Origin: Eutreptiella sp. 'Long Island Sound 2002'
Taxonomy: Eukaryota; Euglenozoa; Euglenophyceae; Eutreptiales; Eutreptiaceae
Assembly (NCBI GenBank): GCA_964036045.1
Contig: OZ038382.1
Span: forward strand, 111,064,578-111,128,577
Length of the DNA: 64,000 bases
Direction: 5' to 3'
The notes beneath the pieces were generated by a model. That model was not told the origin of the DNA, made no database searches, and saw only the letters and a program-made list of their open reading frames with translations. Within the stretch, counting starts at the first letter, position 1. Every line of letters starts with the position of its first letter. This document shows, piece after piece, positions 3,547 through 28,441 of this stretch. A program made the translations under genes and the position numbers.

Positions 3547-3558
3547 CTAGTTTGCTAG

Positions 3559-5934: not shown

Positions 5935-6052
5935 CAAAGTTGGCGCGCCAACTTGGCACTTGGCGTGCGCCAACTGCCAAGTTGGCGCGCCAACTTGGCG
6001 CGCCAAATCTTGAGTTGGCGCGCGCCAAGTCCGGTTCTGGCGCGCGCCAACT
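5935..6052. repeat. Family C palindromic array, 5' copy
   Basis: About six copies of palindromes built on TTGGCGCGCGCCAA or TTGGCGCGCCAA, separated by short CT/TG spacers. The same array recurs at 14174-14361, 21209-21260 and 28415-28441. It lies upstream of the first C ORF, the place where families A and B carry their own unrelated palindromes. By analogy it may bind transposase or regulate transcription; that is inference. Confidence 0.8.
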
Positions 6053-6088
6053 GCCCCATTCTTCCTCTTCTTTTGCACCCTTCATGCA

Positions 6089-6105
6089 TTCCCTTTCCCT
6101 TCTAG
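6089..6105 (+). promoter_or_regulatory. Splice-acceptor-like tract before C ORF1 start
   Basis: The pyrimidine tract TTCCCTTTCCCTTCTAG ends 15 bases before the ATG at 6121. Comparable tract-plus-YAG signals precede the first ATG of A and B and all three transposase genes. It could be a 5'-UTR intron acceptor or a spliced-leader acceptor. No donor was identified here. Confidence 0.45.
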
Positions 6106-6120
6106 GCATTACACTTTATT

Positions 6121-6700
6121 ATGCCTCCAAAGCAACCCAAGAAGGACAAGGGGAAGAAGGTGACAGTCACCGACTCCATGTCTGCCCCCGCTGCACCACC
6201 TAACCCCGAGGTGCAGCCGGTGGTCGATGCCCACATCGCCAACGTGGGCTCCGAGCACTTCCCCGGGGGCTATTTTCCCATCCCCTACACCCTCACCTCC
6301 CCGGACGCCGAATCCTTCCCCCAGCTCCCCCCCCTCCGCGAACCCCTGGAGGCCGCCCTCTTCGGCAAGTGGGATGGGGTGTCCCACAGTAAGGGGGTGC
6401 ATAGTAAGGTATCCTTATGTGAGCCCCCCTTACTATGGAGCACTTTTTGTGGGAGATGGTGTCTCACTCCCTATACCCCCTCAATTTGGGTGTGACGAAT
6501 GCATTTTGACCCACATCACATTGTATCTAAACCAAAAAGGGGGCAAAAGTCGGGCAAAACTAGTAGGATCAAGCTGGTATCTGACCCCCTTACTGTGGGA
6601 CACTCCAGACCGGCCGGGCAATCCCCACTTGGTCTGGCAAATTGACGCCACCCGCCTCAACTTCGCCCTGACCAGGGGGGTTCTTAGCAGGACCTTTCAC
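6121..6700 (+). pseudogene. Family C ORF1, N-terminal part, interrupted by a MITE
   Basis: The ORF starts with a basic leader (MPPKQPKKDKGKK), then a Pro-rich stretch to ~FGKWDG at 6376. A 225-bp MITE sits there. After it the same kind of sequence resumes (PDRPGNPHLVWQIDATRL) until MITE-A begins at 6701. Position after the array and acceptor-like tract, and loose resemblance to the segment just before the oxygenase domain of family B, suggest it is the start of the C oxygenase gene. The oxygenase domain itself is missing. Function is therefore inferred only from organisation. Confidence 0.45.
6379..6603. mobile_element. Small MITE with ~20-bp TIRs
   Basis: The ends GTGTCCCACAGTAAGGGGGT (6379-6398) and their inverse at 6584-6603 bound a 225-bp segment with no coding content. 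Removing it brings the C ORF1 fragments closer together. No convincing target-site duplication was seen. Confidence 0.7.
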
Positions 6701-7074
6701 CCTTCGTGAATAGGGGACAAGTGGCCGTTTGAATAAATGCGTGAATTTCACGTGAGTTTACCGAGATTTTGAGGTTTTCGGGGGAAAACGCCATATTATT
6801 GGATCCTTCTAAGGGATTTGAGGGAGTAAAATTCTTCCCCCAGCTTCATTTCGCATCATCCAATGAAGGTCCCGCCCCAAAAGCATCCACCATGCCCAAA
6901 CCGCGCCAAAAACGAGAGGTGCCAAAACCCGTGAATTGATGCGTGAATTTGGGTGCGTGAATTTCACATTCACGCAAATCTCACCAAATGTGTTGAACCA
7001 TGTGGCTACTTCAAACCTCTAATTTGCACACATTTGTTGCATCTGACTTTGGGCGAAGATAGCACGACAAAAGC
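6701..7074 (+). mobile_element. MITE-A copy 2, left part
   Basis: It begins CCTTCGTGAA, the 3'-type terminus also found at 15371, and continues through the same sequence as 1-290. It is cut at 7074 inside the motif GACAAAAGC. The missing right part is present in inverted orientation at 8324-8417, so this MITE was split by an inversion. Confidence 0.75.
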
Positions 7075-7078
7075 CAAG

Positions 7079-7581
7079 AAAAGGGGGAAAAAGAGTGGTC
7101 TGCTCGTGCACCTGCAGCAAGATCCTGCAGGCACACCATATCGCAGTGGGGGGGGTGTGGACGAGGTTAGTGGTGGGGTACACCTGGATGTGGGCGTCCT
7201 TAGGCTTCCCCACAGGGTTATTCCTTATCGAGTTGAGGACCTGGTCAACACTGGAGGGGAGAGGGGTTAGATGGAGAAATTTGAGGGTGGGGAGTTGGCG
7301 GCGCAGTTCCCTCCACAGGGCAGGGTTGTGGCCCATCCCCTCCCCCCGAGGTAGCTGTTGCGGGTGGGGCTGCGCATGTCGATGTGGATGACATTGGAGG
7401 AGGGGTCGAGGGAGGCTGCCCAGCCCACGATGTCATCCACCCCTAGTGCCTCCGACTCGTACGTTGCCTCCTCCAATTGATGGTGGGCAACGGGGAGGGC
7501 TTGGTAGTGGGCGAGGGTGTCGGCTGCGGGGTCGGGGCGCGAGGCCAGGCTTGCGAGCTGTGACATAGTCTGCTGGGACAT
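7079..7581 (-). pseudogene. Family A ORF1, N-terminal part (inverted)
   Basis: Reads MSQQTMSQLASL... from the ATG at 7581 and is highly similar to the minus-strand copy starting at 19658. A 5-bp insertion (GCAGG, ~7319) shifts frame here, while the A-right copy instead carries a TAA at 19377; the two defects are independent, so the intact protein existed in the ancestor. The conserved part includes VIHIDMRSPTRNS and VQVYPTTNLVHTPP. I recognise no domain; it would lie N-terminal to the oxygenase-like region. The inversion separates it from the rest of the gene. Confidence 0.55.
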
Positions 7582-7604
7582 TGTCAAAAGAGAATGCGAA
7601 GAAA

Positions 7605-7633
7605 GGCTTTGAGAGCTGTAACAAAGCGAAAGA
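7605..7633 (-). promoter_or_regulatory. Conserved leader / acceptor motif of families A and B
   Basis: On the minus strand this reads CTTTCGCTTTGTTACAG then CTCTCAAAGCC, 20-25 bases before the ATG. The same motif is at 19682-19710 (A-right) and, slightly diverged (TTTCGCTTTAG then CTCTCAAAGC), at 28039-28065 in family B. The TTACAG/TTTAG end after a pyrimidine tract looks like a splice acceptor for a leader intron or spliced leader. Confidence 0.5.
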
Positions 7634-7647
7634 GTGGAAAGGAGGTT

Positions 7648-7720
7648 AAATTCGTGCGAAATTCGTACGAAATTCGTATGAATTTTGTACGAATTCGAAC
7701 GAAATTCGTGCGAATTTCAC
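7648..7720. repeat. Family A palindromic array, 5' copy
   Basis: Repeats of the palindrome AATTCGTACGAATT with variants (CGTGCGAATT, CGTATGAATT). Same array type at 9861-10040, 12013-12137, 15615-15712, 17605-17750 and 19725-19766. In this copy it lies between the 5' terminal DNA and ORF1. Confidence 0.8.
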
Positions 7721-7987
7721 ATTCTCCCCAATCTGTGAATCTAGCGTGAATTTCTGCGTGAATTTAGGTGCGTGAATTTCACATTCACGCGAATCTCACC
7801 AAATGTGTTAAACCATGCGGGGACTTTAAACCTCTAAATTGCACCTATTTGTTGCATCTTACTTTGGGCGAAGGTAGCACGACAAAAGCACACGATAGCA
7901 CCAAGTTACGAGCAAAAAACAGCAAAATTGCGTGAAATTCACGGTGCCGTGAATCTCGGATTCAAACGGCCGGTTCACGAAGGGTAC

Positions 7988-8323
7988 ATGGGTGCGCAGG
8001 CGACGGTTGGTGGAGAACTCCGTGGGAGCTACTGCATCCCACGCCTGCACCTTCACCGTCCGGTACCGCACGACGGCGTCATTGGCCGTGCGGTGCGTCC
8101 AGCCACTTTTTTTGACTGGATCCACCCACAGCCACTGCTCCTCGGGGTCGAGACCCTTAGGCGGCTTCTCCTGCAGGTCGAGAACGTTGACGAACTCTTT
8201 TGACGTTGCACCAGTGCACAGCTTCAGGGTCTCATTGAAGGCCTCAAGGGTGACTTGAGAAAGCTTCAACTCGACCGCGAGGGTCGTGGGGTACCGGCCC
8301 ATCACGGCACAGCAGAATTCTGG
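7988..8323 (-). pseudogene. Coding remnant between MITE-A and A-left, probably family C
   Basis: From 8305 the minus strand is open for about 105 codons (MMGRYPTTLAVELKLSQVT... QWLWVDPVKKSGW) until it runs into the A-left terminus at 7987. It is not part of either A copy. Because A-left and MITE-A both appear inserted in element C, this is most simply a C fragment stranded between them. No domain is recognised. Confidence 0.4.
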
Positions 8324-8417
8324 CCTTCGTGAACCGGCCGTTTGAATCTGAGATTCACGGTACCGTGAATTTCACCTATTTTTTATATGTTTTGCTTGTA
8401 ACTTGGTGCCATCGTGT
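8324..8417 (-). mobile_element. MITE-A copy 2, right part (displaced by inversion)
   Basis: The sequence CCTTCGTGAACCGGCCGTTTG... is the inverse of 284-377. It completes the MITE whose left part is 6701-7074. Confidence 0.75.
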
Positions 8418-8425
8418 GGCCAACC

Positions 8426-10472
8426 CCCGGTGGTGGGATGATTTGGGCGTCGCCCCTTTCCATCCCACCATCCCCCCCCAGGTGCACGTTCCGACGTCAC
8501 CCACCCCACCTTCTATAGCACAACTTCTTTGCAATGGTACCGTGGTGCCTCATGCCCCCCCCCCCTTCATTTCGAGTGAACCCCCCCTCCGCACCGAACC
8601 CCTTCCCGACCCCCCTCATGGGGTGATGGGCAGCCCTGACCCCGCCCCCGACAGGGTTGGCCCCTCTCAGCCGCCCCTCAACTTTGTTGATGGGAACGGC
8701 TACATTGTGCTTCGGGGGCTTGTGGAGGCACGGGATTGTGAGGTGGGGTGGAACAAGGTGATGAAGGCGTGGGGCAGCGGCGACGAAAAAGTCGTCGCAA
8801 AGAATTTTGAGGTCCTTTTCAACGCCGCGCGGAGTGAGGAGCAGGACAAGGATCCTGCGCTCCCCGCCGTTGGCAAAGCAAGAGCACCTTGGGGTCGGGG
8901 GTGGGGGGGCTTCTCTTCAAGAAGTTCCACCCCCACCGCACCAAAAGTGTCCCTGGGGTTGGGGACCTCCACCCAATGACGCCGGGCAGCGTCATTGTGG
9001 CCAGTGTGGGGAGTGGGCTGCAGCTCCCCCACACCGACGTGGCCACCCACCCCGAGGTCCTCCCCCCCAGCGACAGGGAGGTGGGGGACTGCCACCTAAG
9101 TAGCTTCCTCTGCTTGTCAGAGGACTACCAGGTGGCGGTGCAGGCGGGGACGGCCCTAGGGGAGGCGGGGGAGGCGCGCTGGAACACCGTTGAGCTGCAT
9201 CGGGGGGACATGCTGCTGATGGCGGCCACCAGCCGCCATAATGGATTTCCTGCCCTCCCCGACTCCAAGGATGGGCTGCAGGGGGCTCTTTTTAACTTGT
9301 GGACCCCCGACCCCCGACACAAACACCACCAGGCCAACACCACACACTTGGACGCCACCCCCCCCAAGGAGGCCCTGGACGTTGCTGGGGATTTGTCCAG
9401 CTGGGACCTCCCAAGCGTGGACCAGGTGTTGTGGGTGGGGAAGGGGGCGGTTGGGAGGGTGGGGTTGTGGGAGGGGGAGGCTGCCCAAGCCCTCTTCGCC
9501 GACCCCCCCCAGACGCTCCCGGCAGGCCCCCCCACCTGCCCCTTCCACCCCACCTTCATCTCCCGGTCGGCCCCGGCCTCCGACCTCGCCGTCATCGAGG
9601 TCGGCCCCCAGTGCATGCTGTTCTTCGTGGGCAGCGTGCACCAGCTGGAGGTCTGCAAGGGGGGCGATGTCGACGCGGAGTCGGGGATCCACTTCGCCTT
9701 GTCCGGCATTGCCCCCCCGGGTCGGGCGACCACGCTGTGGCACCTGGTGAACACGGTCCCAGCGTGGCGGTCGCCCAAGTGCGCGAGGTCCGGGGCATGG
9801 AGCATCACCTGCCCATGCGAGTGCAAGGTGTGCTTGCTTGTGTGTTTGCTTTGTGTATTGGCAAATTGGACGAAATTCACGTGAAATTCGTACGAATTTC
9901 GTACGAATTTCATACGAATTTCGTATGAATTTCAGGTGAATAAATTTGTGTGAATTTTCTCGAAATGTGAAATTCGCACGAAATTCGTACGAAATTCGTA
10001 CGAATTTTGTACGAATTTCCGTGAATTTCGTCCAATTTGCTCCTTTTGCTCTTGCATTGCCTCGTGTCCACTCCCCCTTTCTCAATTTGTGCCTGGCACA
10101 CCTCCCCACATCTGCATGCAGGTCCCGTTCACCGCTTGGTCGCCGAATGTTCGGCACCACACCAAGCGCAAGTGCAAGCCCCGGCCCCGATTGCCCGAGG
10201 AGCACGCCGAGCCCGCCGAAGGCCCCGGTGGCGACGAGCCCGCAAGCACCGGCGGTGGACGGGCACCAAGCGAGGCCGGCAGTGTGCGTAGTGAGGGGTC
10301 GCAGCGCTCTCGACGTTCGGGAGGCAGCGAGGCCAGCACCGCCAGGGGGCATGTGGCGCGCGAGGTGGTGGTGCCCCAGCCGTCCCGCGACGAGTTGGGC
10401 GACGCCCACAACGACCCCCCCCTGGACCGGGTCACCCTGGCCGCCAGGCAGCCGGATCCGGCCTGGACCTAG
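8426..10472 (+). pseudogene. Family A ORF1: Fe(II)/2OG oxygenase-like domain plus Cys-rich tail
   Basis: After a Pro-rich stretch comes GYIVLRGLVEARD (8700), an entry seen in 2-oxoglutarate oxygenases. A frameshift follows near 8870. Then come the HTD iron-binding pair (9030-9038), HLSSFLCLSEDY, VELHRGDMLLM and a distal His in TSRHNGF (His codon 9237-9239), the usual HxD...H order of a double-stranded beta-helix. The tail carries CPCECK. A GT-AG intron (9828-10121) joins it in frame to a basic exon (KRKCKPRPRLP) that ends at a TAG (10470-10472). The reaction would be Fe(II)-dependent oxidation; the substrate is unknown. In fungi TET/JBP oxygenases travel with transposons, so DNA is one candidate. 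Confidence 0.55.
9828..10121 (+). other. Intron in family A ORF1 carrying a palindromic array
   Basis: The donor is GTGTGC after TGCAAG and the acceptor CATCTGCATGCAG. Splicing keeps phase 0 and links CPCECK to VPFTAWSPN. The intron holds the CGTACG array (9861-10040), itself enclosed by inverted GCAAATTGGACGAAATTCACG-type arms. A-right has the same intron at 17511-17782, and family B has an intron at the homologous place (25624-25888) with its own array. Confidence 0.65.
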
Positions 10473-11603
10473 CAGGTGCCGCCCGGGCCCGATGGGCGGC
10501 AGTGGCATCTCAGTGCCGTGTGGGACATGGTGTTGGAGTCGCGGGGGGTGCAGGGCACCCTCCGCATCTCCTTCCCCTGCCCCATTGTGGTCCGGGGGGG
10601 GGCCAACCTGCCTGCGGGGCAGGAACCGGTGGGCATGTTTGCCTACCGGCTTGTGAGTGGGCACTGGCGGGTGCAGACGGGGGTGTCGCGGATCGGGGAG
10701 GCGGGGACGGTGACGACGGCTAGGGTTTTTGGGCTGAATGTGCTCACGGGTTGGGAGCAGCGGAGGCCGGAGTGGGTGGACGTGGCATGGCTTGCCATGC
10801 GCGTCCATGTGGGGAGGCAGCGGAAGATGGGGGTGGTGGTTGACGTCATTGACGTCGAGGAGGACGAACCTCCCCCCACGCGGAGGCGGAAAGGGCGCCC
10901 CGAAGGGGACACGGGCCCCACCCCCCCCCTAAAAGCCCCGCGTACGGCCAGCCCGCCGGAGCGGGCAGTGCGGGCGGAGCAAGCGGAGCCGGTGGGGGGG
11001 CGGGGGCATAGGGGGGTGGTGCAGGAGTGGGTGGACCAGCAGCGGGCGGGGGCGTGGGAGGCACGCGCCATCAGCGCGGAGGCCGCCTACCGCGACCCCG
11101 AGGCCCGTCTGTCCAGGGCCAACGAGGACAGGCGGGACTGCGAGTCGCGGTTGGCGGACGTCACCAAGGAGCGTGACCGGCTGGCCACCAAGGTGAAGAC
11201 TCTTGAGCGCGACGTGGCGACGTTGCGCAGGGCAAAGCCAGCGGCACAGCCAGCAGAGGCAGTGGAGAGGGCTCAGGGTGCCGAGGCCCCCGCCCCCCCG
11301 GGTGACAGGGGGGGGGCCAGTGCTGCTGGTGTCCGGTACCTCCTGGACGGCGCACAGGCCTGGCATGCCCAGGCCGAGGCATGCGCCGGCCAGCTGTCCG
11401 CAGTGTCCACCGGCCTGCGGATGGCCATGTTGGGCAGTGGACAGCAGGTCGATGTGGACACCGTGACCCTCGACGCCCCCAAGGTGACTGCCGCAATGGA
11501 GGAAGTGCGCCGGCAGTTCCCCCCCCCACCGCCTCACGTCGGCGGCCATGGACCCCTCCTTTGTGGAGGCGGTGGCGGAGCAGAGCTCCTAGGGCTCCGC
11601 TAG
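10473..11603 (+). CDS. Family A coiled-coil protein (in frame after a TAG)
   Basis: This stretch is in the same frame as the upstream exon and separated from it only by TAG 10470-10472. About 377 codons: a beta-rich looking N-terminal ~110 residues (LRISFPCPIVV, MFAYRLVSGHWRVQ), an acidic/basic spacer (VIDVEEDEPPPTRRRKGRP), then a long heptad-rich coiled coil (~residues 190-260, e.g. RLADVTKERDRLATKVK). Family B has the same layout at 24488-25500. The coiled coil suggests oligomerisation. Ends in TAG at 11601-11603. It may be the C-terminal part of the oxygenase polypeptide if the first TAG is read, or a second ORF. Confidence 0.5.
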   Translation, partial: QVPPGPDGRQWHLSAVWDMVLESRGVQGTLRISFPCPIVVRGGANLPAGQEPVGMFAYRLVSGHWRVQTGVSRIGEAGTVTTARVFGLNVLTGWEQRRPEWVDVAWLAMRVHVGRQRKMGVVVDVIDVEEDEPPPTRRRKGRPEGDTGPTPPLKAPRTASPPERAVRAEQAEPVGGRGHRGVVQEWVDQQRAGAWEARAISAEAAYRDPEARLSRANEDRRDCESRLADVTKERDRLATKVKTLERDVATLRRAKPAAQPAEAVERAQGAEAPAPPGDRGGASAAGVRYLLDGAQAWHAQAEACAGQLSAVSTGLRMAMLGSGQQVDVDTVTLDAPKVTAAMEEVRRQFPPPPPHVGGHGPLLCGGGGGAELLGLR

Positions 11604-12244
11604 CCGGAGCTCTGCTCCCGGGGGGGGGGGGTGCGTAGGTACCCTCCGGAGCACCTGTCCTTTCTAACCACGACGAATGTTATCCTGCCCCCCCCCCCAA
11701 GCATGGGCAATTTGACTGATATGTGGGGTACTCCCCCCCCACTGTGCGAAATTTTCTGCAGCACTGTTTGTACATTAATTGGGGTACGGTGTGCCCCCTG
11801 ACCTGTTTGCGATTTTTTCTGCGGAACTGTTTGTATTTTATTTGGGGTATGCTATGCCCCCTGACGGGTTACACTGCTGGCTGAGTGACAGCCGGAATGA
11901 CAGCCACTGGACTGGGTGTGTGATAACCCATGAGCACCATCCTGAGCTTGCTTTGTGAGGGTCAACGAGGGCAGAAGGACGAGGCTTTGGCAGAAATTCT
12001 GTGACAGTCATGTGAAATTCGCACGAAATTCGTACGAATTTCACATTTTCAGAATATTCACACATTTCTATTCACGTGAAATTCGCACGAAATTCGTACG
12101 AAATTCGTACGAATTTCGTGCGAATTTATGTGAATTTCGTCAAATTGCATGCGAATCACAGTAGAGAGAGTTGTCTGCGGGAGGGGGATGGTAGAAACTT
12201 TGCGATGACTGTCTGCCCATTCAACAGGTCTTGTATCTCACACC
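11604..12244. repeat. Intergenic stretch with family A array before the transposase
   Basis: Non-coding. It holds C/G homopolymer runs, a diverged ~110-bp partial duplication around 11760-11870 (TTTGTA...TTGGGGTA motifs), the CGTACG array at 12013-12137 and an acceptor-like CTGCCCATTCAACAG ending at 12227. The bases GTCTTG-N11-ATG follow, matching the equivalent position of family C (14452-14472). Confidence 0.65.
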
Positions 12245-14012
12245 ATGCTACGGCCCAAGGAGCCATTCCATCTGCTAGCGGATCGTACACGACGGCGGCG
12301 CCTACAAGAGCTCCAGGAGGTTGTTACCAAGGAGCTTGCAGCACCCTACACCGTCAAGTACCTGCCCGACACGGGGCAAATAGTGCTTACCCCCGAAACA
12401 AAAATTGTAGCCACCGTCCAGCCCGAGCCCACCTAGGAGGAGAGGTTGATTATGGCCGTGTGGAGGATCCGGTCATTGCACCTCTCTAGGACGGAGTCCC
12501 GGTACCTAGTGGGGAGCATGACGTACGGTGTGGTATGGGACCAGGTGTACGGCATGCTTCGGCAGCTAGCGTTGCCGGAGTCCCGGGCGTTCACTGCCTA
12601 TACGGGTGACGACACGGCCATCAATGGTGCGGCCTGCTACCTACCTGACCGCATCGGCCACCTATTCAAGTGTCGACCACCCCCACCCTCGGCCATCATG
12701 CAGCCCGGGGACCGACGGCTGCATTGGTTGCCTATTGCGGTGGACGGTACATCGAGGCATGAGGCCTCGTACGTCCATTGCACGCTTGGTGGCACCGCCA
12801 GCCCCAACCAACTATCTATAGTTGGTGGCTACTAGGGGGCAGTGAAAAGTGGGAGACCCTCTACGCGGCCTCCCAGGAAATTGATTTTGATGATGAGTTG
12901 CGCAAGGCCGCAACCGTAAGTTTTAAGGATACGGCAGGGAACGATAGGCAGTCCCTTTTTTTTTTCTGTGTGCAGATGGTAAGGCACAGGTGCTCATGGC
13001 GGGCTGCCAAAACTGGAAGGCAGAATCCCCTGGTGCCACTGTGTGTTGGGTCTGCATGCGTAACCGTGCTCTGTGCCTTGCTACCTTGGGCACAGCAAGT
13101 GCGATAGACGGCAACTGGGAACCAGCCGTTGCCATGAATGCTATATATAGGACCATTACGAGTGATAGGCGAGTGCCTGATTATGTCCTCCATGGGGTCC
13201 TTCGTGTCCTGTTGTGTGCAGTCAACGGGACACGGGACCTAGTTGTACAATTGACAGGGAAGGCACCGGCCACTGTGGCACGCACCATGCTGCAACCGGT
13301 TCTAGATGAGGCACGGCTTGTTGCACGAACTTGCACCCGTGCCTCATTAAATAATGACAAGGCAAACAGCAAGGGGAAGGTGAGGATGGAGTGTGCTGCT
13401 GCCATCCATTTCATGCGCAATAGGGGTTGGGAGAAGATAATAGATGCTTGCCTAGAGCAGCCTAGTGTCAGGCAGCATCAAGTAGGGGGAAAAAGTTGGG
13501 AGTCGGTGTGCAAAACGTGGTGGGAGAATTTTGCAAGCATGTGTGTATACGCGTGGCGTTCCGCATGGTTCTCCAGGGCCGACTTGGGGCGGCTCCGGAA
13601 CCATAGCATAGCCATGGGCGCTGCCCACAATGAGCTCCAGTGGGGCAAACTTCTGTGGACGCATCGTTGGATCGACCACATGTATTATTTTGCAAAGAAG
13701 TGGAGAATCTTGTCAAAGTTCTCCTGCTTTGCCATGGAGGGAAGTCACCGGAGGCTGAAGCGCATGTTGCGCAACAGCGGGAGCCTAAGCCCTCTCCGGG
13801 GGAGACTAGGGGTACAAGTGGTTGTGGACAACCACACCATTGACGATAGCCTTTGGTTGCATGGGTGGGATGCGACCAAAAGGGCTCAACATGGGCAAGG
13901 GCCCATAAGTGTACAAACGTATGCAAGCCGCACAAGAAGACGGCTTCTAACCGACATGCAGCACCTTCAGACTCTACAGCGGCGGTTCCGGTGCCGCAAG
14001 AGACGGACATGA
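12245..14012 (+). pseudogene. Family A transposase (RAG1/Transib-like), left copy
   Basis: It starts MLRPKEPFHLL with a basic helical N-terminus. Catalytic motifs: D1 in IAVDGTS (12743-12745), D2 in ADGKAQV (12975-12977), CWVC shortly after D2, HRWIDH (13662-13679) and E in AMEGSHRR (13737-13739), exactly 20 residues after the second His. RAG1 has the same D, D, CxxC, HxxxxH, E order and the same His-to-Glu distance. Defects: TAG at 12434-12436 in an otherwise open frame, a 2-bp insertion near 12815 and a T-run longer by two near 12952-12961 relative to A-right. Product would cut and join transposon ends in the nucleus. Confidence 0.7.
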
Positions 14013-14018
14013 GATCAA

Positions 14019-14155: not shown

Positions 14156-14452
14156 GTACTGGCTTGGCATGGCTTTGGCGCGCGCCAAGTGGTAAGTTGG
14201 CGCGCCAAATCCTGATTTGGCGTGCGCCAACAGGGGAGTTGGTGCGCGCCAACTGTGAAGTTGGCGCGCCAACTTACCACTTGGCGCGCGCCAACTCAGG
14301 ACTTGGCGCGCGCCAACTGACGAGTTGGCGCGCGCCAACTCCTGAGTTGGCGCGCGCCAACTGCGTGCCAGCTGTGTGCCATCTGTGTGCGAACGTGCAA
14401 CAACGTTCTGTTGTATGATCCAACCCGCCTGCCACGTCCTCACGTGCCGCAG
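14156..14452 (+). repeat. Family C array inside a probable intron before the transposase
   Basis: The donor-like CAG/GTACTG at 14153-14161 and the acceptor GTGCCGCAG ending at 14452 enclose the TTGGCGCGCGCCAA array (14174-14361, about nine palindromes). The acceptor is followed by GTCTTTGTTTGTGCACC and ATG, close to the family A arrangement at 12227-12247. The intron status is inferred from these signals. Confidence 0.6.
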
Positions 14453-14469
14453 GTCTTTGTTTGTGCACC

Positions 14470-15366
14470 ATGCAGCGGCCCTTTGAGCAGCTGGCGCCCT
14501 CAAACTACCGCGACAGGCGCGCGCGGCTGGCGCGCCTTCGCGAAGTCGTGGGGGAGATTTTGGGGCCACATTGGCAAGTAACCCGGCCGCCACCGCATCC
14601 ACCTCGTTTGCGGGGAGAGCAAACCCCGGGTTAGGGTTAGGGGCCCCACCCCCGATTTGGAGCTGTTGGCCACGGCCATTTTGTGGGAGAGCCGCAAAAA
14701 TGGCGACAGCTTCCGCAAACTGCAGTACAGCCGGGCACACAGCCAATGGAAGTGCCCATGGGGAACCCTGATGAAGGTGCGAAAGGCATTGTCCGCCCCC
14801 CGTGTCACGGAGGTCCATTTTCAGATGGACGAGGACAATGACATTTTTGGGCCCGCATGCAATCTGTGGCAGAAAGTGCAGGTATTTTCACCCTTCACCA
14901 AAGCGTTTCCCGGCGACCGTTCACGGTGACCCATTACACACGGCCTGTTTTCTGGCACAGGTGATGTGGCACCGTGACGGCCCCACGTTCCTGACGGAGA
15001 ACGTGTGGGTGGGCATCTCCTTCGACGGGACAAAGCTCTAGCAGGCCTCCTTCGTGCATTTTGCCGTTGGAGACCTGGGGAGTCATATGCCCTTGGGCTC
15101 TTGGATCTTGCTGCGCGGATCCGAGAAGAAGGCCATCATTTCCCAATTGGCCGAGCTCTATGACCTGAACGCGGACCTCACCGAGGTGGCGCAGCAGCAA
15201 ATCCCCGATAAAGGGGGCTACCTGCGTAAGGTGATTTCTTTTTTTATATTAGACACCAAGGCGCAGGTCATTTTGGGGGGTTGCTCCTCCTTCACAGCCA
15301 AAAACCCCGCAGCCACTGTTTGTTGGCTGTGTGGGAAAAATCGGGCAACCATTCTGCACGAATGTA
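14470..15366 (+). pseudogene. Family C transposase, 5' half (interrupted by A-right)
   Basis: The N-terminus MQRPFEQLAPSNYRDRR parallels family A MLRPKEPF. A frameshift lies near 14630 at GGTTAGGGTTAGGGG. The next part (ELLATAILWES... KVRKALSAPRVTEV) aligns with the A protein. Then come D1 in ISFDGTK (15024-15026), an in-frame TAG (15039-15041) that aligns with a His of family A, WILLRGSEKKA, D2 in LDTKAQV (15252-15254) and CWLC (15321-15332). The reading frame is cut at ~15370 by the A-right insertion and resumes at 20034. Copy is inactive as it stands. Confidence 0.65.
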
Positions 15367-19658: not shown

Positions 19659-19681
19659 TGTTAAAAGAGAAGAACGCGAGG

Positions 19682-19766: not shown

Positions 19767-20033
19767 TCTCCCGAATCTGTGAATCTGGCGTGAATTTGTG
19801 CGTGAATTTAGGTGCGTGAATTTCACATTCACGCGAATCTCACCAAATGTGTTAAACCATGCGGGGACTTTAAACCTCTAAATTGCACCTATTTGTTGCA
19901 TCTTACTTTGGGCGAAGGTGGCACGACAAAAGCACGCGATAGCACCAAGTTACGAGCAAAACACAGCAAAATTGGGTGAAATTCACGGTACCGTGAATCT
20001 CGGATTCGAACGGCCGGTTCACGAAGGGTACAA

Positions 20034-20977: not shown

Positions 20978-21260
20978 CCTCTATATATGATTGATATGCC
21001 TCCATGGCCCCCAGTTTTGAGCTACGGCTCCACAGTGTACACTACATCGGGAAGCACAGCTTCTTGCACATTCACAGTCTTTTGCACATTCATCAAAAAA
21101 AGATGGAACAATGCTTTCTTCGTGCCAAGTGTGCAAGGGCAGGTGAGGGACGGAATTTCCAGTGACAACAATAGTATGCAAGTCGATGGTTTGATCGGTG
21201 GGGGGACATTTGGCGCGCGCCAAGTCCGGACTTGGCGCGCGCCAAGTCCGGACTTGGCGC
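20978..21260 (+). repeat. Family C 3' region with array
   Basis: About 230 bp of non-coding 3' flank follows the transposase. Two and a half TTGGCGCGCGCCAA palindromes linked by AGTCCGGAC (21209-21260) come next. The array is broken by element B at 21262 and continues at 28415-28441. Confidence 0.65.
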
Positions 21261-21261
21261 A

Positions 21262-21297
21262 TGGGATGCAGCGTTCTAGGGCGTGGTGCGGAACCCC
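21262..21297 (+). repeat. Family B terminal inverted repeat, 3' end of element
   Basis: Matches the inverse of 28376-28411 over 36 bases. Confidence 0.8.
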
Positions 21298-21449
21298 TAG
21301 TTAGAACGCAATTTCTGGAACACCCACCTACCCTCAATTTTGGGGCAAACCACCTAAAAAAATGGATTCAGCACCCTCAAAAACCCCCCATCCCCTTTCT
21401 TTCCCCACATAACCCTCATCGTAGGGGTGGTTTTTGGGGGGGGGGTCAA

Positions 21450-21578
21450 ACAGTTAGAGCACAGTTAGAACAGAGTTAGAACGCAGTTAGAGCACCTTGC
21501 TCTAACTAGTTATCGCGCTAGTTATCGCGCGATAACTCAGTTATCGCGCAGTTATCGCGGGTAGTTATCGCGCACCCC
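21450..21578. repeat. Family B array, 3' subterminal copy
   Basis: GTTAGAGC/GTTAGAAC repeats followed by five or six TTATCGCG units, some paired as TTATCGCGCGATAA. Lies 65 bp beyond the transposase stop. Confidence 0.8.
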
Positions 21579-21642
21579 TCCTCCCTCCCTCCCTAGGACA
21601 AACAACACAAAACACTTGGCACAAAGCATGTGTGGTCGTTTT

Positions 21643-23385
21643 TCATACAAAGTCATCAATGTCTGAGGCCTTGGCTGCCTCCAGTCCCAAAAGCCCTTGC
21701 TCCAGGGCGTTCATGGACATGCAATGGTGCATGTGGCGGAGGGACATACTTGGCCTCACCAAGGACCAACCCTTAAAACAATTTTTGAGCCTCCTCTTGT
21801 AAGGCCCATGCCGATACTCCGTTGGGATGGAGAAAAACTGAAAAATGTTCCTCCATTTCTCGGCAAAAAAGGTGGAATGTGCCAAGCACCAATGGATCCA
21901 CCTGGTGGGGGACCAACCTGAGTCTCCCCACGCTTTTGAAAATTTTGTGGTCAACGCACGGTGGCGTTCCACTTGGGTTAGAGTGTACAACTCCCTCACC
22001 CTCCAAAGCTCATACAAACCCTCAATGCATTTCACCATGACATGCACAACAACCCATAACATAGGTCCCCCGGGGGTCCTCACTGCGGGGACATGCTCTT
22101 TGAGGCAATCCACAAATTGCCTTTGGAAGGGGGGGGAGGTTAGGAAAACTTTGGTGCTGGTTAGATCGAAATCTTTTTCTGTGGCCCTCGAGGCCGAAGG
22201 GAGGCGTTCCCTCAGAGGGATGCCTGAGGTCTCATCCTTGAGGGCTTGCTTGAAGGCCTGCAAAGCTGCAAGAGCTTGGGCCTTACCAGGGGTACCAGGG
22301 GGGAGGGCCTGAAGGGTGGTCTCAATGCGCTTTGCAATGCCGTTTAGGATGCGGCATGCTGCATGTTGGTAGTCCCCCGGCCGCCTATCAGGGGTCACAC
22401 TTCTCAAGAATGCCCCCCATCTTGAGGTGGACTCCACCCCCATTTGCTCAACAATCCCATTGGGGTCTTTGCACAACCAACACTTAGACCCAGCCCCCCC
22501 CATTGCTTGCATCCCCTTCCCATCCCCTGTCAAAATGACAGTGCAAGTCAAAAATTGGTTTTGAAAGAGGACAACGTCCTCTTCCACATCCCTCACCTCT
22601 TGGTTGAGGTTGGCGGAGATGTCCAGGCTTCTCAAAAAAGCCTGTTCATCCCCGCCATCCATGCAAAACCATGAGGCCCATAGCTTCACCTTCGAAGCAT
22701 ATTTTGCCCCCCCCCCCCATACATTAACCCATACATCCGCACGGGTAGAGGATGCCTTCCACAAGGAAGTCGCATCAACTGAAATAACAATGATGGCAAC
22801 GCCACTAGGGGGGGGTTTCCCAATAACTCGGGCCATAGATATTGCATTTTGCACAATTGATTGCAAAGGCACATGGGCAGCTGCCCTATTGCGGCCTGTG
22901 GTAGACTTTACAATGGTGGTTTGGGGAAAGTAGGGCATGATCCGTTGCCGAACGGTCCTTAGGTCCCGTTGTGTGCAACGGCGGGGCATTCGCAAAAGGG
23001 CCCGTTGGGAGAGATGCATGCTGCATGCCATGCGTAGCATGCTCAGGGCCTCATGCTCCTGAGCTGTTAATGCAAGATGGCCGCCAAGTGGGCCAGACAG
23101 GGCAGCGCACGCCCCACCACTTAAACAAACTTCGCCTTTGGTGTTGGTGCCACACACGACGTCTGGGTCACCCAATAGAACTCGCACCAGCCGCTGAACC
23201 GCCTTCAAACGCTGCCGCCGGGCCTTGGGGCACTGCAGATCGGTGTACCGCCGGAGGTTATATAGCTGTGTTGAGAGCCCGCAGGGCCTCATTGACAGCA
23301 CTGTCCATGAAGAATAAGAGGACCTGGACACGAAATGAGGGAGGGTTTTGAAGCAAGGGCCCAAAAAACACACGCGATAACCCAC
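21643..23385 (-). CDS. Family B transposase (RAG1/Transib-like), intact core
   Basis: An uninterrupted 580-codon frame. Motifs counted from its first codon: D1 at 204 (VISVDATSLWK), D2 at 288 (LTGDGKGMQAM), C302xxC305 (KCWLCKD), DRRPGDYQHAACRIL, H498-x4-H503 (WIHWCLAHS) and E523 (IPTEYRHGPYKRR). RAG1, from established structures, uses D600, D708, C727/C730, H937/H942 and E962: the same order, with an identical His-to-Glu spacing of 20. The first ~30 codons fall in array/intron-like DNA. A CAG/GTCC acceptor-like site (~23339) and nearby ATGs suggest the real start is at ~23322 or 23292. Ends in TGA. Nuclear DNA cutting and joining of element ends is inferred. Confidence 0.75.
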   Translation of the reverse strand: MGYRVCFLGPCFKTLPHFVSRSSYSSWTVLSMRPCGLSTQLYNLRRYTDLQCPKARRQRLKAVQRLVRVLLGDPDVVCGTNTKGEVCLSGGACAALSGPLGGHLALTAQEHEALSMLRMACSMHLSQRALLRMPRRCTQRDLRTVRQRIMPYFPQTTIVKSTTGRNRAAAHVPLQSIVQNAISMARVIGKPPPSGVAIIVISVDATSLWKASSTRADVWVNVWGGGAKYASKVKLWASWFCMDGGDEQAFLRSLDISANLNQEVRDVEEDVVLFQNQFLTCTVILTGDGKGMQAMGGAGSKCWLCKDPNGIVEQMGVESTSRWGAFLRSVTPDRRPGDYQHAACRILNGIAKRIETTLQALPPGTPGKAQALAALQAFKQALKDETSGIPLRERLPSASRATEKDFDLTSTKVFLTSPPFQRQFVDCLKEHVPAVRTPGGPMLWVVVHVMVKCIEGLYELWRVRELYTLTQVERHRALTTKFSKAWGDSGWSPTRWIHWCLAHSTFFAEKWRNIFQFFSIPTEYRHGPYKRRLKNCFKGWSLVRPSMSLRHMHHCMSMNALEQGLLGLEAAKASDIDDFV

Positions 23386-23545
23386 GCGATAACCCCCGCG
23401 ATAACTAGGTTATCGCGCGATAACCCCCGCGATAACCCCCCGCGATAACTAGTTAGAGCGCGATAACCCCCCGCGATAACTAGTTAGAGCACCTAGTTAG
23501 AGCGCGATAACCCCCGCGATAACTAGTTAGAGCAGGGGTTAGTGC
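23372..23545. repeat. Family B array before the transposase
   Basis: About 12 GCGATAAC units, several as GTTATCGCGCGATAAC, with GTTAGAGC units interspersed. Position matches the pre-transposase arrays of A and C. Confidence 0.8.
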
Positions 23546-23565
23546 GCACTAAGTGGTGGTGTTAG

Positions 23566-23818
23566 AGCAAGCGTTGGGCACCCTAAAACCTTCACAAACG
23601 TTGATTTTGCACCCAGGAAACCTTGGAGATGTCAACAATGTGCAGGCACGGGGTACATGGCGCCACAATCACAAATTCAAATCAGTCAAATGGACATGTT
23701 CCGGGCTAGTTGCCCCTCCTCAGAGTCCACAGAGTACAGTAATAGAAATAGTGAACAATAATCGAATAACAAATAACACTAGCTGGAGGGGTTAGAGGAA
23801 GCATTGGGCACCCTAAAA
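23566..23818. repeat. ~25-bp direct repeats flanking ~200 bp
   Basis: AGCAAGCGTTGGGCACCCT-type sequence at 23566-23590 recurs with few changes at 23794-23818. The intervening 200 bp is AT-richer and non-coding. This could be an insertion with duplicated ends or a local duplication. Confidence 0.45.
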
Positions 23819-24412
23819 CCCATGGACAGCAGCTGCTGCCGCCACACAGGCGTGCAGTGCAGAACCCCCCCCCGCACTATAAAAAATCACGCTCCATCGC
23901 TCGCCCTCCCATGGCAATGGAGCGTGTAGTGCCCTGGTGTTGAACAACACCGGGGCTTGAGGGGTGGCGGTGCATGCCCAACCCTCCACCGCCCTACCCT
24001 TGCACACACGGGTGTGCCGCTTTTTTTCCCTCAAGGAGGGATTCAGCAGGCCACCACTCTCCACCCAAAACTCACCCCCCGTGAAAGACCCCACACACAC
24101 AATAAGCGCCATGGGCGCCCCATCCCGCAAATGGGAGTGGAGGCCCATGGTGTCCGTCCCTTGGGGGCGAACAATTTGGATGCTACACCATGTGAACCAT
24201 GGTGGAGCATTGGAGGTGCAATACCCATTGAGGTCTGCAACCAAGGGGGTGAGGGCAGGCCTGACGGTAGCAGCGGCCATGTGGGTCGCCCTAAAATTAG
24301 AGGGGTTGGGGTTTCCACTTCCCACAAGGCCAAAGTGGCACATGTCCACTTGGGCCCCATATCGCTCCTCCCCACGAAAAATGCCCTTGGGCAACCCCTT
24401 GAGCAAATCCAC
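23813..24412 (-). CDS. Family B second oxygenase-like ORF (Fe(II)/2OG-type, atypical)
   Basis: 199 codons. The segment MGLHSHLRDGAPMALIVCVG, then GSFTGGEFWVESGG and FNTRALHAPLPWEGERWSV, has the H...G-G-E-W...H-(x10)-R layout of a compact 2-oxoglutarate oxygenase of the kind found in mobile-element proteins. The expected first HxD reads HSH with Asp three residues later, so iron binding is uncertain. No ATG fits the start; it begins at GTG after a CTAG, so it may be a spliced exon. It lies between the coiled-coil ORF (same strand) and the pre-transposase array. Ends in TAG. Confidence 0.5.
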   Translation of the reverse strand: MDLLKGLPKGIFRGEERYGAQVDMCHFGLVGSGNPNPSNFRATHMAAATVRPALTPLVADLNGYCTSNAPPWFTWCSIQIVRPQGTDTMGLHSHLRDGAPMALIVCVGSFTGGEFWVESGGLLNPSLREKKRHTRVCKGRAVEGWACTATPQAPVLFNTRALHAPLPWEGERWSVIFYSAGGGSALHACVAAAAAVHGF

Positions 24413-24415
24413 TAG

Positions 24416-25623
24416 TCATTGGCTCCCACTCCTACTCCCGCTACCCTGACTCTGCAACCCTTGCGGCGCCAGCCCCTGCTGGGCCTGCTACGCCCCGAAG
24501 GAGGCACAGAGGGTGGAGGTGAGGCTGCGCACCTGCGCCTCAGCCACCCCCAAGCGCTGCCCAAGGTCATCCCCCCTCCTCCGCTGCCCCTCCACCTCCA
24601 CCCTAAGCCGGGCCGCCTCCACCTCCGCCTTCCGCCTCCCCTCCTGGGCCTCCCTCAGGGCCTCCCTCATCGCCTCCACCTCCTCCCCCCTCTTGGCGGC
24701 CAGGTTGAGCGCCTGGTCCAGGGCACGCTGGGTGTTGCCCTGGGCCTTTTCGGCCTTCGCCAAGGCCGACTTGTGGTCGGCCGACCGACCCTTGGCCAGT
24801 GCGGCCTCGACCCCTGTGGCGGCCGCCTGCTCCACCAAAACCTGGCAAGCGTTCGTCACGTGGGTGGCCACACTGGCCCCCAAGGCCTCCACGTCCAGGG
24901 CCTCATGGGGGGGCTGGGCTGCCGCCACCTTTGCCACCTTCGATGGCTTGGGGGAGGGCTTGGGGGCGGGGGTTTGGCCCTTACCCCTAAGGGGGGGGGG
25001 GGCATCCGGCTCAACCACCACCACGTCTGGTCCCCGCTTCGTCTGGCCTTTTCCCGGCCTTCCCCCCTTGGGTGCATACTGCCGAACCCAGTCGGCAGTG
25101 GCGTCCACCACAGAAGGGGGGGGGTCATACCCACCAACCTGGTGGATGTCCCCCCCCCTGTGCAGCTTCTGCCACACTTCCCTCCCCGTATACTCCCCCT
25201 CCCACAAAAAACACACCCTCAAAAGGAAATAAGATTTCCTTTGGGGGGGGTCGCTCATCCCAAACAAACACAAAAAAGCCGCAACCGTTTCCCCCTCTGC
25301 GGCTTGCGGCCACTTGGCCGTTTCCCCCCCAACCCACACATAGGAGGGGAGGGTGAGGTTGGTCTTCCTCTCCACCCCCCCCCTCCTTCTCTGTGATGGT
25401 GACCTGCCGGTACCATCCCGTTCCCCCCATCCTGCAGGCCTCATCCCTAGGCTCCCCAAACCGCCACGACGCCCCCTCCGGCAGCCTCTTCTCCCTCCAG
25501 CTCCAACCGGGCCGCCACCGGCTTGGCGGGCCGTGCCCCTGCTGCTTCTGCAGCTCCGCCTGCTGCCTCGGCTGCCTGGGCGTCGTCCTTGACGAAGATG
25601 CGGGGCAGCTGCAAGATGGTAGC
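24416..25623 (-). pseudogene. Family B coiled-coil protein
   Basis: Exon 2 after the intron begins ATILQLPRIFVKDDAQAAEA. A frame change near 25500 leads to WRFGEPRDEA...GWYRQVTI, and another near 25400 leads to NLTLPSYVWVGGE...FLCLFG and YFLLRVCFLWEGEYTG, matching the family A protein domain by domain. Then VVVVEPDAPPP and a long Ala/Glu/Arg coiled coil (HKSALAKAEKAQGNTQR... GQRLGVAEAQVRSL). A TAG at 24488-24490 follows SFGA. The same frame then encodes a 23-residue Gln/Gly/Ser-rich tail (QAQQGLAPQGLQSQGSGS) before TGA at 24416. Role inferred as oligomerisation or DNA-end bridging, not shown. Confidence 0.5.
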
Positions 25624-25888
25624 CTGAAAAAAACAAAAGAAACAAAAAAAAACACGCGATAACCCGCGCGATAACCCGCGCGATAACCCGCGCGATAACC
25701 CCCGCGATAACTAGGTTATCGCGCGATAACCCCCGCGATAACCCCCCGCGATAACTCCGCGATAACTAGTTAGAACGCGATAACCTAGCGCGATAACTAG
25801 TTAGAGCACCTAGTTAGAACGCGATAACCTAGCGCGATAACTAGTTAGAGCAGGGGTTAGAGCAGGGTGTTGTGGGAAGTTTTCACAC
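25624..25888 (-). other. Intron in family B ORF1 carrying a GCGATAAC array
   Basis: Donor CAG/GTGTGA after CPCHQ; acceptor after a 25-base T-rich tract ending TTTTTTTCAG. Splicing is phase 0, as in family A where the donor follows CPCECK with GTGTGC. It contains ~14 GCGATAAC units (25650-25855). Same position, same phase, different array. Confidence 0.7.
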
Positions 25889-26657
25889 CTGGTGACATGG
25901 ACACATGCCTTGGCCCTCCTTCTTGGCGTCGTCCAGCACCAGGCCCACCCTCCGCAGCCACACGAAGTCCGTGACGGCCGCATACTCCCCCACCTGCCGC
26001 CACTCCACCACCTGGGCCACCCCCTCCACCTCAGGGGCCACCCTTGCCACTCCCCCATACAACCCCCTCTTCACCACCAAAATGGTGCCCGCCGGCACCT
26101 TCATCCCAACATGCCGGCCCTTGCAAGGTGGGCCAGGGCAGTGCCTCCCCATGGCACACCTTGGCCAAGGGGCACTGATCGGGGTGGCCTGCGACCGCCC
26201 CCGCCTCCTCATTAGTGAGGGGGGCAATCACCTCCCTCCCAATCCCCCACCCCGACAACAAAAAATGCCCTGTGGTTGTTCCCACCGGGAGCAAGCACTG
26301 AGTAGATTGCTCAATGCTGACCCCATTGGGGTCCACCACCACCACCTCCTCCTCCCCCCCCTCCACCCCCCCCCCCTCCTGGCATGGCACACAAAGGCCA
26401 TCTTTGTGGGCGGTGCACAAAATCAGCCGATTGCATCCGTAGCAATTGGCTACCACCTTCCCCCTACACCTAACCGCCCCATCACACTGGACTGTCCTGG
26501 CCACCCGGCCAGCAGGTGCCCCCAGCTGGGGCCTCTTAATGGACTGCGTCACGTGCAGGTTGGGGAATCGAAGATTCCCCCCCTGGGTAAGCTCAATGGC
26601 AAAAAATGCCATGAGGCGGGGGTCCCTTACCCCCATGGGGGAGGCCTTGGGAATCCC
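25889..26657 (-). pseudogene. Family B ORF1 Cys-rich region
   Basis: Continues in the frame of the oxygenase-like domain past a TAG (26658): GIPKASPMGVRDPRLMAFFA contains the Arg expected after the last His of 2OG enzymes. A Cys/His cluster follows (NCYGCNRLILCTAH, DGLCVPC), probably zinc-binding. A frame change near 26200 leads to MKVPAGTILVVKRGLYGGV, YAAVTDFVWLRRVGLVLDD and CPCHQ, ending at the intron donor. Confidence 0.5.
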
Positions 26658-28024
26658 CTACCCCCTGTGGACATCAAGGGCATTAAAAAAAAAGGCAGTG
26701 CCCCTCTTGAATGGCACAGCCCTCTCCACCCAAGGGTCAGGGAACCCCGAACTGCTGGAGGGCACAAAAAGAAAATGTGACCCATCCTCCTCCTCATGAT
26801 TATGGGTTAGCATAATAAGGCAATTGACAATCAATGTGCCTTCAGGAATGGTGTAGGGGGGGGCGTCGCGATGGAGGTGCTGGGGGGTGTGCACGGTGTG
26901 CATGGTCATAGCTCGAAATTTCGGCCATGTCAAGGATGGTGCAGCTCCATCCAACCCCCCCACCACAGTCTTCTTCGCCGTCTCAAGCACACGATCTGCC
27001 ACCCTTTTGAGGACTGGCAGATCATGGAGCTTGTGGGGGTTGTGCCTGTGGTGGTTGGCACCCCCATAGTTGCCATACAATGTACGGCGGGTCCCAGAAT
27101 CTTGGGGCCTGCCGACAATGGGGGGGTTCTCATTGAAAATGGGTGCCTTCTCTGAGAGAGGCACCCTATCCAAATCATCCAAAAGACTTTGCAGCTGCAC
27201 ATCACTCAAAAAATCGTGCTCCAGGAGGTGGTTGACCACCAGCTTTCCCCCCACCGTGAGCACAAGGTCATTGGGGTCCCTATTAAAGGCCCCCAAGGGC
27301 TCGGCGGCAACCACCTCCTCCGCCTCCCCAATAAGGGGGGGTGTTGCCCCAAATGGAAAAAGAATCACCCCCTGCCCCGAAACAATGTTGGGAGTGGTGA
27401 CCCCATACCACTCACGCTCCCACTCCCTTGTGGGGCAAAGGGAGTGCATGGGGAGCTTGTTTTCGGGGTCGTCAGTGCAGACCCGGTGGGTGTTGTGGGT
27501 GAGGGGTTGGGGGAACCAACCATCCGACTTCCCCTTCCCCTTGCCCGGTCGGATCCTTACCTTCTGGACACTCATCATGAGGGGGTTGTGGGGCTTCTCC
27601 TTCCTCCCCCCAGCCCCCACCCCCCCCGCATCCTCCTCCTCCTCCTCCACTTCCTCCTCCTCCTCCTCCTGACCCACATAGAGGGTCGTCTTCGTCCCCG
27701 CACCCTTCTCGGCATGGGCGGTGACGGACTCCACCACGGCGTCCACATCGTCCGGATGAAGCTGGATCAAAAATCCAGCAACCCCTGATTTACCTCTAGC
27801 AACTCGAAGATGTAGTTGCTGAGAACCAGGGGGTCTCGCTTGTCCGCCATGAAGGGGGACTTATGGACAAGGAGTCCAAAGTCCACACCATGTTCAAAGC
27901 GGGTCGCCACAGGGCGCCTCACATTGGCATCACCCATCGTAAACCCCTCAGGACCGCCAAGGCGACGGACCCCAAGGAGCTTTTGATGGTGCTCGCACCA
28001 AGCGTGGGCAGCAGCAAGGGCCAT
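26658..28024 (-). CDS. Family B ORF1: oxygenase-like protein (Fe(II)/2OG-type)
   Basis: ATG at 28024 opens an 85-codon frame (MALAAAHAWCEHH...) that shifts by one base at a T5 run near 27770 into the main 370-codon frame. After an acidic tract (poly-Glu) and a Lys-rich stretch comes LVVNHLLEHDFLSD, a start typical of 2OG oxygenases. Then GNYGGANHHRHNP, the iron pair HRD (26865-26873, in QHLHRDAPP), MLTHNHEEEDGSHFLFVP, and the distal His in FNALDVHRG (26667-26669). An in-frame TAG (26658-26660) falls directly after this His, before the expected Arg. It therefore needs readthrough for a complete domain, or the copy is dead. Confidence 0.55.
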
Positions 28025-28038
28025 TATCAAAGAATATG

Positions 28039-28228
28039 AAAGCTTTGAGAGCTAAAGCGAAAAGGGGAAACATAAAATGAAGCGCGATAACCCACGCGAT
28101 AACCCACGCGATAACTAGGTTATCGCGCGATAACCCCCGCGATAACCCCCGCGATAACTAGGTTATCGCGCGATAACCCACGCGATAACTAGTGCTCTAA
28201 CCCCGTTCTAACCCCGCGATAACTAGTT
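28039..28228 (-). promoter_or_regulatory. Family B leader motif and 5' array
   Basis: TTTCGCTTTAG/CTCTCAAAGC (28039-28065) lies ~20 bases before the ATG and resembles the family A leader. About 11 GCGATAAC units follow at 28081-28228. DNA from 28229 to 28375 is unassigned subterminal sequence. Confidence 0.6.
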
Positions 28229-28375
28229 AGAGCACACAAAGATCAAATCGCAAAAAGTGCAAAACGGGCAATATCGAGCAAACGAAACATGCAAGACACA
28301 TTGTTGCATCATAGTGCACCCATGTAACATGTGAAATTCCGGGTTCCAACCATATTAACAACACCCAAAATTGGG

Positions 28376-28411
28376 GGGGTTCCGCACCACGCCCTAGAAC
28401 GCTGCATCCCA
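28376..28411 (-). repeat. Family B terminal inverted repeat, 5' end of element
   Basis: Inverse of 21262-21297 over 36 bases. Confidence 0.8.
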
Positions 28412-28414
28412 CAC

Positions 28415-28441
28415 CAACTTGCGACTTGGCGCGCCAACTTG
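28415..28441. repeat. Remainder of family C array beyond element B
   Basis: CAACTTGCGACTTGGCGCGCCAACTT, of the same type as 21209-21260. Shows that B split the C array. Confidence 0.6.

Follow-up and report, generated by a model that had tools for sequence, protein, structure and literature searches.

A 64,000-nucleotide stretch of the genome of the euglenophyte Eutreptiella sp. 'Long Island Sound 2002' (GenBank assembly GCA_964036045.1, contig OZ038382.1, positions 111,064,578 to 111,128,577; hereafter the window) contains nested transposable elements of three families, A, B and C, which carry a transposase gene, an upstream gene (ORF1) and arrays of short palindromes. The palindrome motif is private to the family, the positions of the arrays recur between families, and over five families (A, B and C together with D and E, found elsewhere in the genome) the motif covaries with the transposase, which bears out the suggestion of a first-pass annotation of this DNA that the arrays co-evolve with something family-specific. 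Private motifs that change with the transposase, and that are found in the element ends, upstream of the genes and within an intron, are the trace expected of an element protein that recognises its own DNA. We read the arrays, with a probability of about 0.6, as clustered docking sites for a DNA-binding protein of the same element, with one address per family.

Palindromic arrays recur at matching places

The arrays are present where the first-pass annotation had located them, far above chance. Against 20 dinucleotide shuffles, the A core CGTACGAAT was seen 22 times in the window (0.15 expected), the B core CGCGATAAC 42 times (0.05 expected) and the C core TTGGCGCG 31 times (2.25 expected); all 22 A cores, all 42 B cores and 30 of the 31 C cores fall inside arrays. 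Palindromes of at least 8 bp cover 22–98% of the arrays, compared with 2–6% after plain shuffling. The unit spacing is 11 bp in A (16 of 20 intervals), 11–13 bp in B (44 of 55 intervals) and 22 bp in C (autocorrelation 0.64), which is approximately one or two helical turns.

Measured from the transposase ATG, the arrays of an A copy with both ends (locus L043) lie at −4496, −2397 and −259, with a fourth 146 bp after the stop codon; those of B lie at −4927, −2559 and −237, with a fourth at +69 after the stop, and those of a C copy that has lost its 5' part to B (L005) at −1884 and −295, with a further array at +185 after the stop. The pattern listing for E gives sites at −5071, −2272, −375 and +268 of the protein match at C1:22801596; in a second E set (C1:33029839-33035729) the spacers point to the same order, with no transposase among the scored matches there. 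In A (L043), B (window) and C (where splice sites were read in L006 alone), the array of the ORF1 intron is flanked on one side by a GTGTG donor that follows a CxC motif and on the other by a CAG acceptor. These shared signals make the intron positionally the same in A, B and C, although a profile comparison does not align exon 1 of A with that of B. The intron array had been noted for A and B, which holds, and not for C; the window copy of C is deleted across this site, yet the array is present in the C stretches L005, L006 and L007. The 5' leaders (5' array to ATG) of A and B are alike (score 35 versus a shuffle maximum of 28), as are the pre-transposase leaders of A and C (25 versus 22), and no likeness beyond chance was found between the pre-transposase leaders of A and B or of B and C, or between the intron flanks of A and B. 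CAGGTC occurs shortly before the ATG in all three pre-transposase leaders (12147-12260, 14365-14480 and 23290-23366); it is possibly a 3' splice site, in which case an intron of the 5' leader may contain the pre-transposase array.

The element ends share words with the arrays of their own family. When the 8-mers of the terminal 150 bp were compared with the arrays, 22 were shared in A (3.9 expected), 12 in B (1.1 expected) and 11 in C (1.25 expected), and in each case none of 200 shuffles reached as many. The termini are TGTACCC..GGGTACA in A and TGTAACT..AGTTACA in C, both of the TGT..ACA form, and TGGGATG..CATCCCA, without that form, in B. The terminal repeats of A and D (D read at one end) align, as TGTACCCTTCGTGAAC and TGTACCCTTTGCGAAT. 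A 2-bp duplication is found at both ends of all four elements read: AA in the window copy A2, TC in L043, CA in B and AA in C. The longer AAGAA flanks of C suggested a 5-bp duplication of the Transib type, which was dropped as A2, L043 and B have just 2 bp.

Other copies were sought in the assembly of the window, and all genome-wide pattern counts cover its 2.28 Gb and 2205 contigs. The A transposase search gave 74 scored matches from 8579 candidates, and the 30 best-scoring of the 74 listed copies were fetched. All 30 keep the pre-transposase array, with 5–11 cores of the CG[TC][AG]CG kind per 330 bp, and the 3' array is kept in 24 of the 28 copies whose 3' end was found, the other two having no exact terminal-repeat match. 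Copies that are otherwise near-identical differ in unit number, in 11-bp steps. L043, with both ends, is 6994 bp long and has TC/TC flanks; it carries four arrays, and its ORF1 exons and transposase are open. Public proteins whose gene calls read through arrays show the arrays in further copies of A (P0173, P0225 and P0260) and B (P0030 and P0142); they come from a scan with array-derived 5-mers (256 of 260 proteins) in which most matches are single chance words, only those named being used.

The C pattern TTGGCGCGCGCCAA has 4684 sites genome-wide, versus one for a reversed-pattern control. Eight 10-kb stretches were taken from its first places on contig 1, so that arrays are present in them by choice. 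Three of these have three or four arrays: L006 and L007 have four each and have both lost part of the transposase, and L005 has the transposase and three. The others are split, partial or diverged copies with one or two. L008 and L009 are opposite sides of a single C copy that an A element has split, and each side has one C array; a single array is also present in L010 and in L012, where the transposase is absent or partial. In L011 the transposase is 73% identical to that of C and has C-type arrays before and after it, with the C core kept.

Five families and a common CGNNCG centre

Family D has a transposase 59% identical to that of A and 93 matches, two of which, at 59%, are A-like; eight were fetched. 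Relatives 65–75% identical to D also appear among the matches; the array counts come from the eight fetched copies. The D motif TTCGCGCGAA and the A motif TTCGTACGAA both have 11-bp spacing. Upstream of the D transposase TTCGCGCGAA is found exactly in six of eight copies and in all eight if one mismatch is allowed, and it precedes the 3' end in seven. Family E has a transposase 29.5% identical to that of B and 80 scored matches, the DNA of one of which was read; its motif GTATACGGCCGTATAC, with 22-bp spacing, lies on both sides of the transposase (E locus L005). A two-unit E pattern, of which the first places on contig 1 were used, has 1398 sites genome-wide versus none for its reversed-pattern control. 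The pairs A–B, A–C, A–E, B–C, B–E, C–D and C–E have transposases 21–35% identical, and their motif flanks differ.

The exact core of the own family stands just upstream of the transposase in 30 of 30 A copies (215 A cores), six of eight D copies, three of three C copies and the single B and E copies; upstream of these 43 transposases there are no exact cores of any other family. Downstream, the own core is found in 25 of 30 copies of A, seven of eight of D, both of the C copies read and the single copies of B and E. The foreign cores downstream are C cores only, beyond the A end in L033 and in the C sequence that surrounds the nested B. In L033 the C-type palindrome TTGGCGCGCGCCAA lies directly beyond the A end, and a C array may have been the insertion site of this A element.

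The arrays of all five families contain palindromes centred on CGNNCG, which strengthens the earlier remark that the palindromes are CpG-rich. Among palindromes of at least 10 bp in sampled arrays, those with this centre make up 17 of 25 in the A arrays of the window, 24 of 26 in L043, 5 of 13 in B, 9 of 17 in C, 29 of 29 in D and 5 of 5 in E; outside arrays they are 8 of 744, 656 of the 744 being pure AT. The five family addresses are TT[CGTACG]AA, GTTAT[CGCGCG]ATAAC, TTGG[CGCGCG]CCAA, TT[CGCGCG]AA and GTATA[CGGCCG]TATAC. Taken singly, ACTAGT is the most frequent centre in B (8 of 13) and stems from units that stand head to head, and in C a GCGCGC centre is found in 6 of 17. Beside a truncated D element, L045 has five perfect 20–22 bp palindromes GCTGGCCGAAATTTCGGCCAGC about 75 bp apart (3475-3775, transposase-forward); their centre is other than CGNNCG, and they were not counted as a further family.

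Candidate binders and competing explanations

The transposase has a predicted fold of the RAG1/Transib type, at about 10–13% identity to RAG1/Transib; the P element, IS and Hermes rows of the fold comparison were treated as general fold kin. P0156 has CxxC, H472xxxxH477 and E497 (position counted), with H477 invariant and H472 nearly so in 23 rows. C(2)C and H(3-4)H are common to the transposases of the CMCT clade (CACTA/Mirage/Chapaev/Transib/Plavaka/ESTA), and HHpred links ESTA to RAG1, according to the available part of PMC12730594. The CMCT features found here are the RAG1/Transib-type core, C(2)C and H(3-4)H placed between the second D and the last E, and the 2-bp duplication, which falls within the 2–5 bp of that clade. 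RAG1 and Transib have 5-bp duplications and CAC ends, neither of which is seen here. No Pfam transposase model matched at E ≤ 1 among the 23 transposases scanned, including that for KDZ, which we take Pfam to hold; a KDZ/TET reading was dropped after the Pfam results and the RAG1-like model fold. A scan of viral contigs gave no relative.

For ORF1, exon 2 of A gives coiled-coil-type matches, which makes its product a candidate TNPA-like second protein as judged by sequence. Exon 1 of A gave nothing in Pfam, an HxD...H pattern in A ORF1 being seen by eye only, and the C exon 1 pieces gave no oxygenase; B ORF1 matches 2OG-FeII_Oxy_3 weakly in 5 of 14 members (best E = 3.9e-4), with a weak PhyH match too. 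No Tet_JBP match was obtained in the ORF1 proteins scanned. The predicted structure of B ORF1 has a mean pLDDT of 26 and was not used.

On the docking-site reading, the binder would be either the RAG1-like transposase or the coiled-coil product of ORF1, which would then act as TnpA does in Spm. The first-pass annotation had named the same two candidates; the arrays fit a cognate DNA-binding protein encoded by the element, which may be either of the two. Bound to half-sites in the terminal repeats and to the 5' and 3' arrays, such a protein would mark the ends for transposition; bound to the arrays upstream of both genes and in the ORF1 intron, it would control the genes of its own family alone and would probably keep them open. 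As arrays gain and lose whole units, motif and binder could drift together and the families become private. A common ORF1 binder would rest on the gene order, the junction of CxC motif and intron and the coiled coil of A, because homology between A and B ORF1 is undetectable by profile. A more elaborate form of this reading, which we offer only as speculation, is an address code made of modules. Its constant CGNNCG centre could be read through the state of CpG methylation and would stand between family-private flanks at four control points per element, where the transposase and a TnpA-like, oxygenase-like ORF1 product would re-open their own family, motif and reader drifting so that at least five families coexist without cross-activation.

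Several results weigh against the docking-site reading. Four A copies (L028, L030, L033 and L040) have no 3' array despite a full-length transposase match in each, and L011, with most of its transposase, has just two arrays and none further upstream in the stretch. Profile comparison of ORF1 exon 1 of A with that of B gives no signal, and the 5' leaders of A and C, and of B and C, show no likeness beyond chance. B ends share slightly more 8-mers with A arrays than expected (6 versus 2.4; 16 of 200 shuffles as high), the highest of six cross comparisons. The sharing of words between ends and arrays is weak in D, where one end of one copy was compared (7-mers, 7 versus 4.1, 25 of 200; 6-mers, 21 versus 13.4, 10 of 200). 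B and E are each represented by one DNA copy plus listings.

The arrays might instead be purely transpositional subterminal sites, the internal ones being decoys or autorepression sites with no silencing role. No more than a few hundred bases separate the 5' and 3' arrays from the ends, which share words with them, and TNPA recognises and works on the subterminal repeats of CACTA (En/Spm) elements (PMC2613891, in its accessible part); the intron and pre-transposase arrays, however, belong to the larger ones and keep corresponding positions in A, B, C and E, and we consider this explanation possible but doubtful. A different role, VANC-like anti-silencing with an active demethylase, would have an ORF1 DNA oxygenase brought to the CGNNCG sites by the array binder, which recalls the earlier idea that the arrays are modified by the encoded oxygenase. 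It would account for the common centre, for the CpG observed/expected ratio (1.2–3.9 in arrays, 0.38–0.80 in coding parts) and for the oxygenase match in B. In the 30 A transposase genes there are 2.95 transitions per thousand at CpG (17 events) and 0.67 at other C/G sites (16 events), an excess suggestive of methylation of A copies, not proof of it. The transversions are likewise raised at CpG (2.08 versus 0.79 per thousand), four A comparisons are mixed (two with more CpG than other transitions, one about equal and one with fewer), and a Gypsy long terminal repeat (LTR) that has no arrays has a ratio of 1.21. As the oxygenase signal is confined to B among the ORF1 pieces scanned and Tet_JBP is missing from the scans, the idea of modification is weak and a demethylase seems rather improbable.

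Recognition by the host, through host factors or as targets of silencing of the insulator or small-RNA type, is quite unlikely; tandem repeats are frequently silencing targets, as a partly available source has it, but here one host has at least five motifs, each tied to one transposase clade and closest where the transposases are closest. Growth by slippage of neutral minisatellites in non-coding gaps would explain the unit-number polymorphism. It was already disfavoured by the palindromic form, the common centre and the presence of one motif at four separate places and in the ends, and with the C and E site counts set against their reversed-pattern controls we regard it as very improbable.

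TNPA on Spm/CACTA subterminal repeats and VANC on VANDAL appear, by analogy, to be the two closest known designs. En/Spm shares with the elements described here a CMCT-clade transposase, short family-variable motifs near both ends and a second element protein, and TNPA action correlates with demethylation (PMC10398659, available part). In contrast to En/Spm, the arrays here also lie in the ORF1 intron and before the transposase and have many perfect palindromes with a shared CGNNCG centre, and the termini are TGT..ACA or TGG..CCA with 2-bp duplications. The motifs of VANC from Arabidopsis VANDAL21 are likewise family-specific and tandem, lie in introns, intergenic regions and terminal non-coding regions and change quickly between relatives (PMC5735166, accessible text). 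The motif is palindromic here, unlike that of VANDAL21. The transposase class also differs, that of VANDAL being Mutator. Among the fungal Plavaka/ESTA elements, PlavakaA has 2-bp duplications and TGT..ACA termini (Kojima 2025, PMC12730594, available part), as do A and C, whereas B ends in TGG..CCA; the comparison is one of described features. In the accessible part of that paper palindromes are mentioned only at gene-capture breakpoints, and we found no description of palindromic arrays of this kind in this type of transposon in the open-licence literature searched. Some plant transposons are known to be controlled in a family-private way. At least five related families, each in many copies, form in this one genome a natural series of protein and DNA address that diverge together; the address differs by two bases between A and D and has unrelated flanks at the far end of the series. 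If the docking-site reading is true, it would become directly testable how DNA recognition by RAG1-like recombinases, and selfish anti-silencing, evolve.

Nested elements of the window

Self-comparison and terminal repeats show that the outer element C is broken up by four insertions, A0, A1, A2 and B; element ends and array limits were placed by eye. Two of the earlier placements change. The array at 7648 had been assigned to ORF1 of the element at 8324-14017 and actually belongs to the oppositely oriented A0. The C 3' array at 21209 is present but incomplete, B having inserted within it.

Coordinates of the elements, arrays and genes in the window
Feature	Position	Strand	Basis or remark
Outer element C	5711-28677 (approximate)	+	Inverted terminal repeats, TGTAACTACGAAGCCAA; flanks match as AAGAA/AAGAA
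C 5' array, TTGGCGCGCGCCAA type	5938-6053	+	About 70 bp upstream of likely ORF1 ATG near 6121
A0, A deletion derivative inside C	6703-7988 (approximate)	−	Self-comparison and terminal repeats
A 5' array of A0 (not A1)	7648-7720	−	Motif and self-comparison
A1, A copy, 3'-truncated, without 5' array segment	8324-14017	+	Self-comparison, terminal repeats
A intron array (A1)	9861-10040	+	Motif/palindrome counts
A pre-transposase array (A1)	12008-12146	+	Motif/palindrome counts
A transposase (A1), disrupted frames	12245-14012	+	tblastn with P0156
C pre-transposase array	14175-14364	+	Motif/palindrome counts; C transposase ATG about 14470
A2, A copy with both terminal repeats, in C transposase, middle 2.2 kb deleted	15364-20032	−	Self-comparison, terminal repeats
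A 3' array (A2)	15623-15705	−	Motif counts
A intron array (A2)	17592-17749	−	Motif counts
A 5' array (A2), directly upstream of ORF1	19724-19823	−	Motif counts
C 3' array, part 1	21209-21257	+	Palindrome content; resumes past B
Element B	21258-28411	−	Terminal repeats TGGGATGCAGCGTTCTAGGGCGTGGTGCGGAACCCC
B 3' array	21450-21574	−	Motif counts
B transposase, frame shift near start in window copy	21643-23308	−	
B pre-transposase array	23367-23545	−	Ends 59 bp ahead of ATG
B intron array	25653-25867	−	Donor GTGTG after CPCHQ, acceptor TTTCAG
B ORF1 exon 1, not intact in window copy	25888-27937	−	Relatives have marginal 2OG-oxygenase match
B 5' array	28082-28235	−	Motif counts
C 3' array, part 2	28413-28440	+	Palindrome content

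An inverted fragment of C ORF1 (MGRYPTTLAVELKLSQ...) lies at 7989-8320 between A0 and A1, and C is therefore rearranged between two A ends. Beyond the nested elements, a minus-strand reading frame of 987 amino acids (32091-35057) matches DUF1280 (E = 5.1e-15). A unit of about 1–2.6 kb occurs in inverted and direct copies at 35810-44041, with 151–162 bp tandem repeats and very long AT runs, and reading frames at 43917-48968 with a CCCH zinc finger and an endonuclease domain are possibly those of a non-LTR retrotransposon. At 48940-64000 a pair of LTR-like repeats, 98.5% identical, flanks a chromodomain Gypsy polyprotein (56692-61668).

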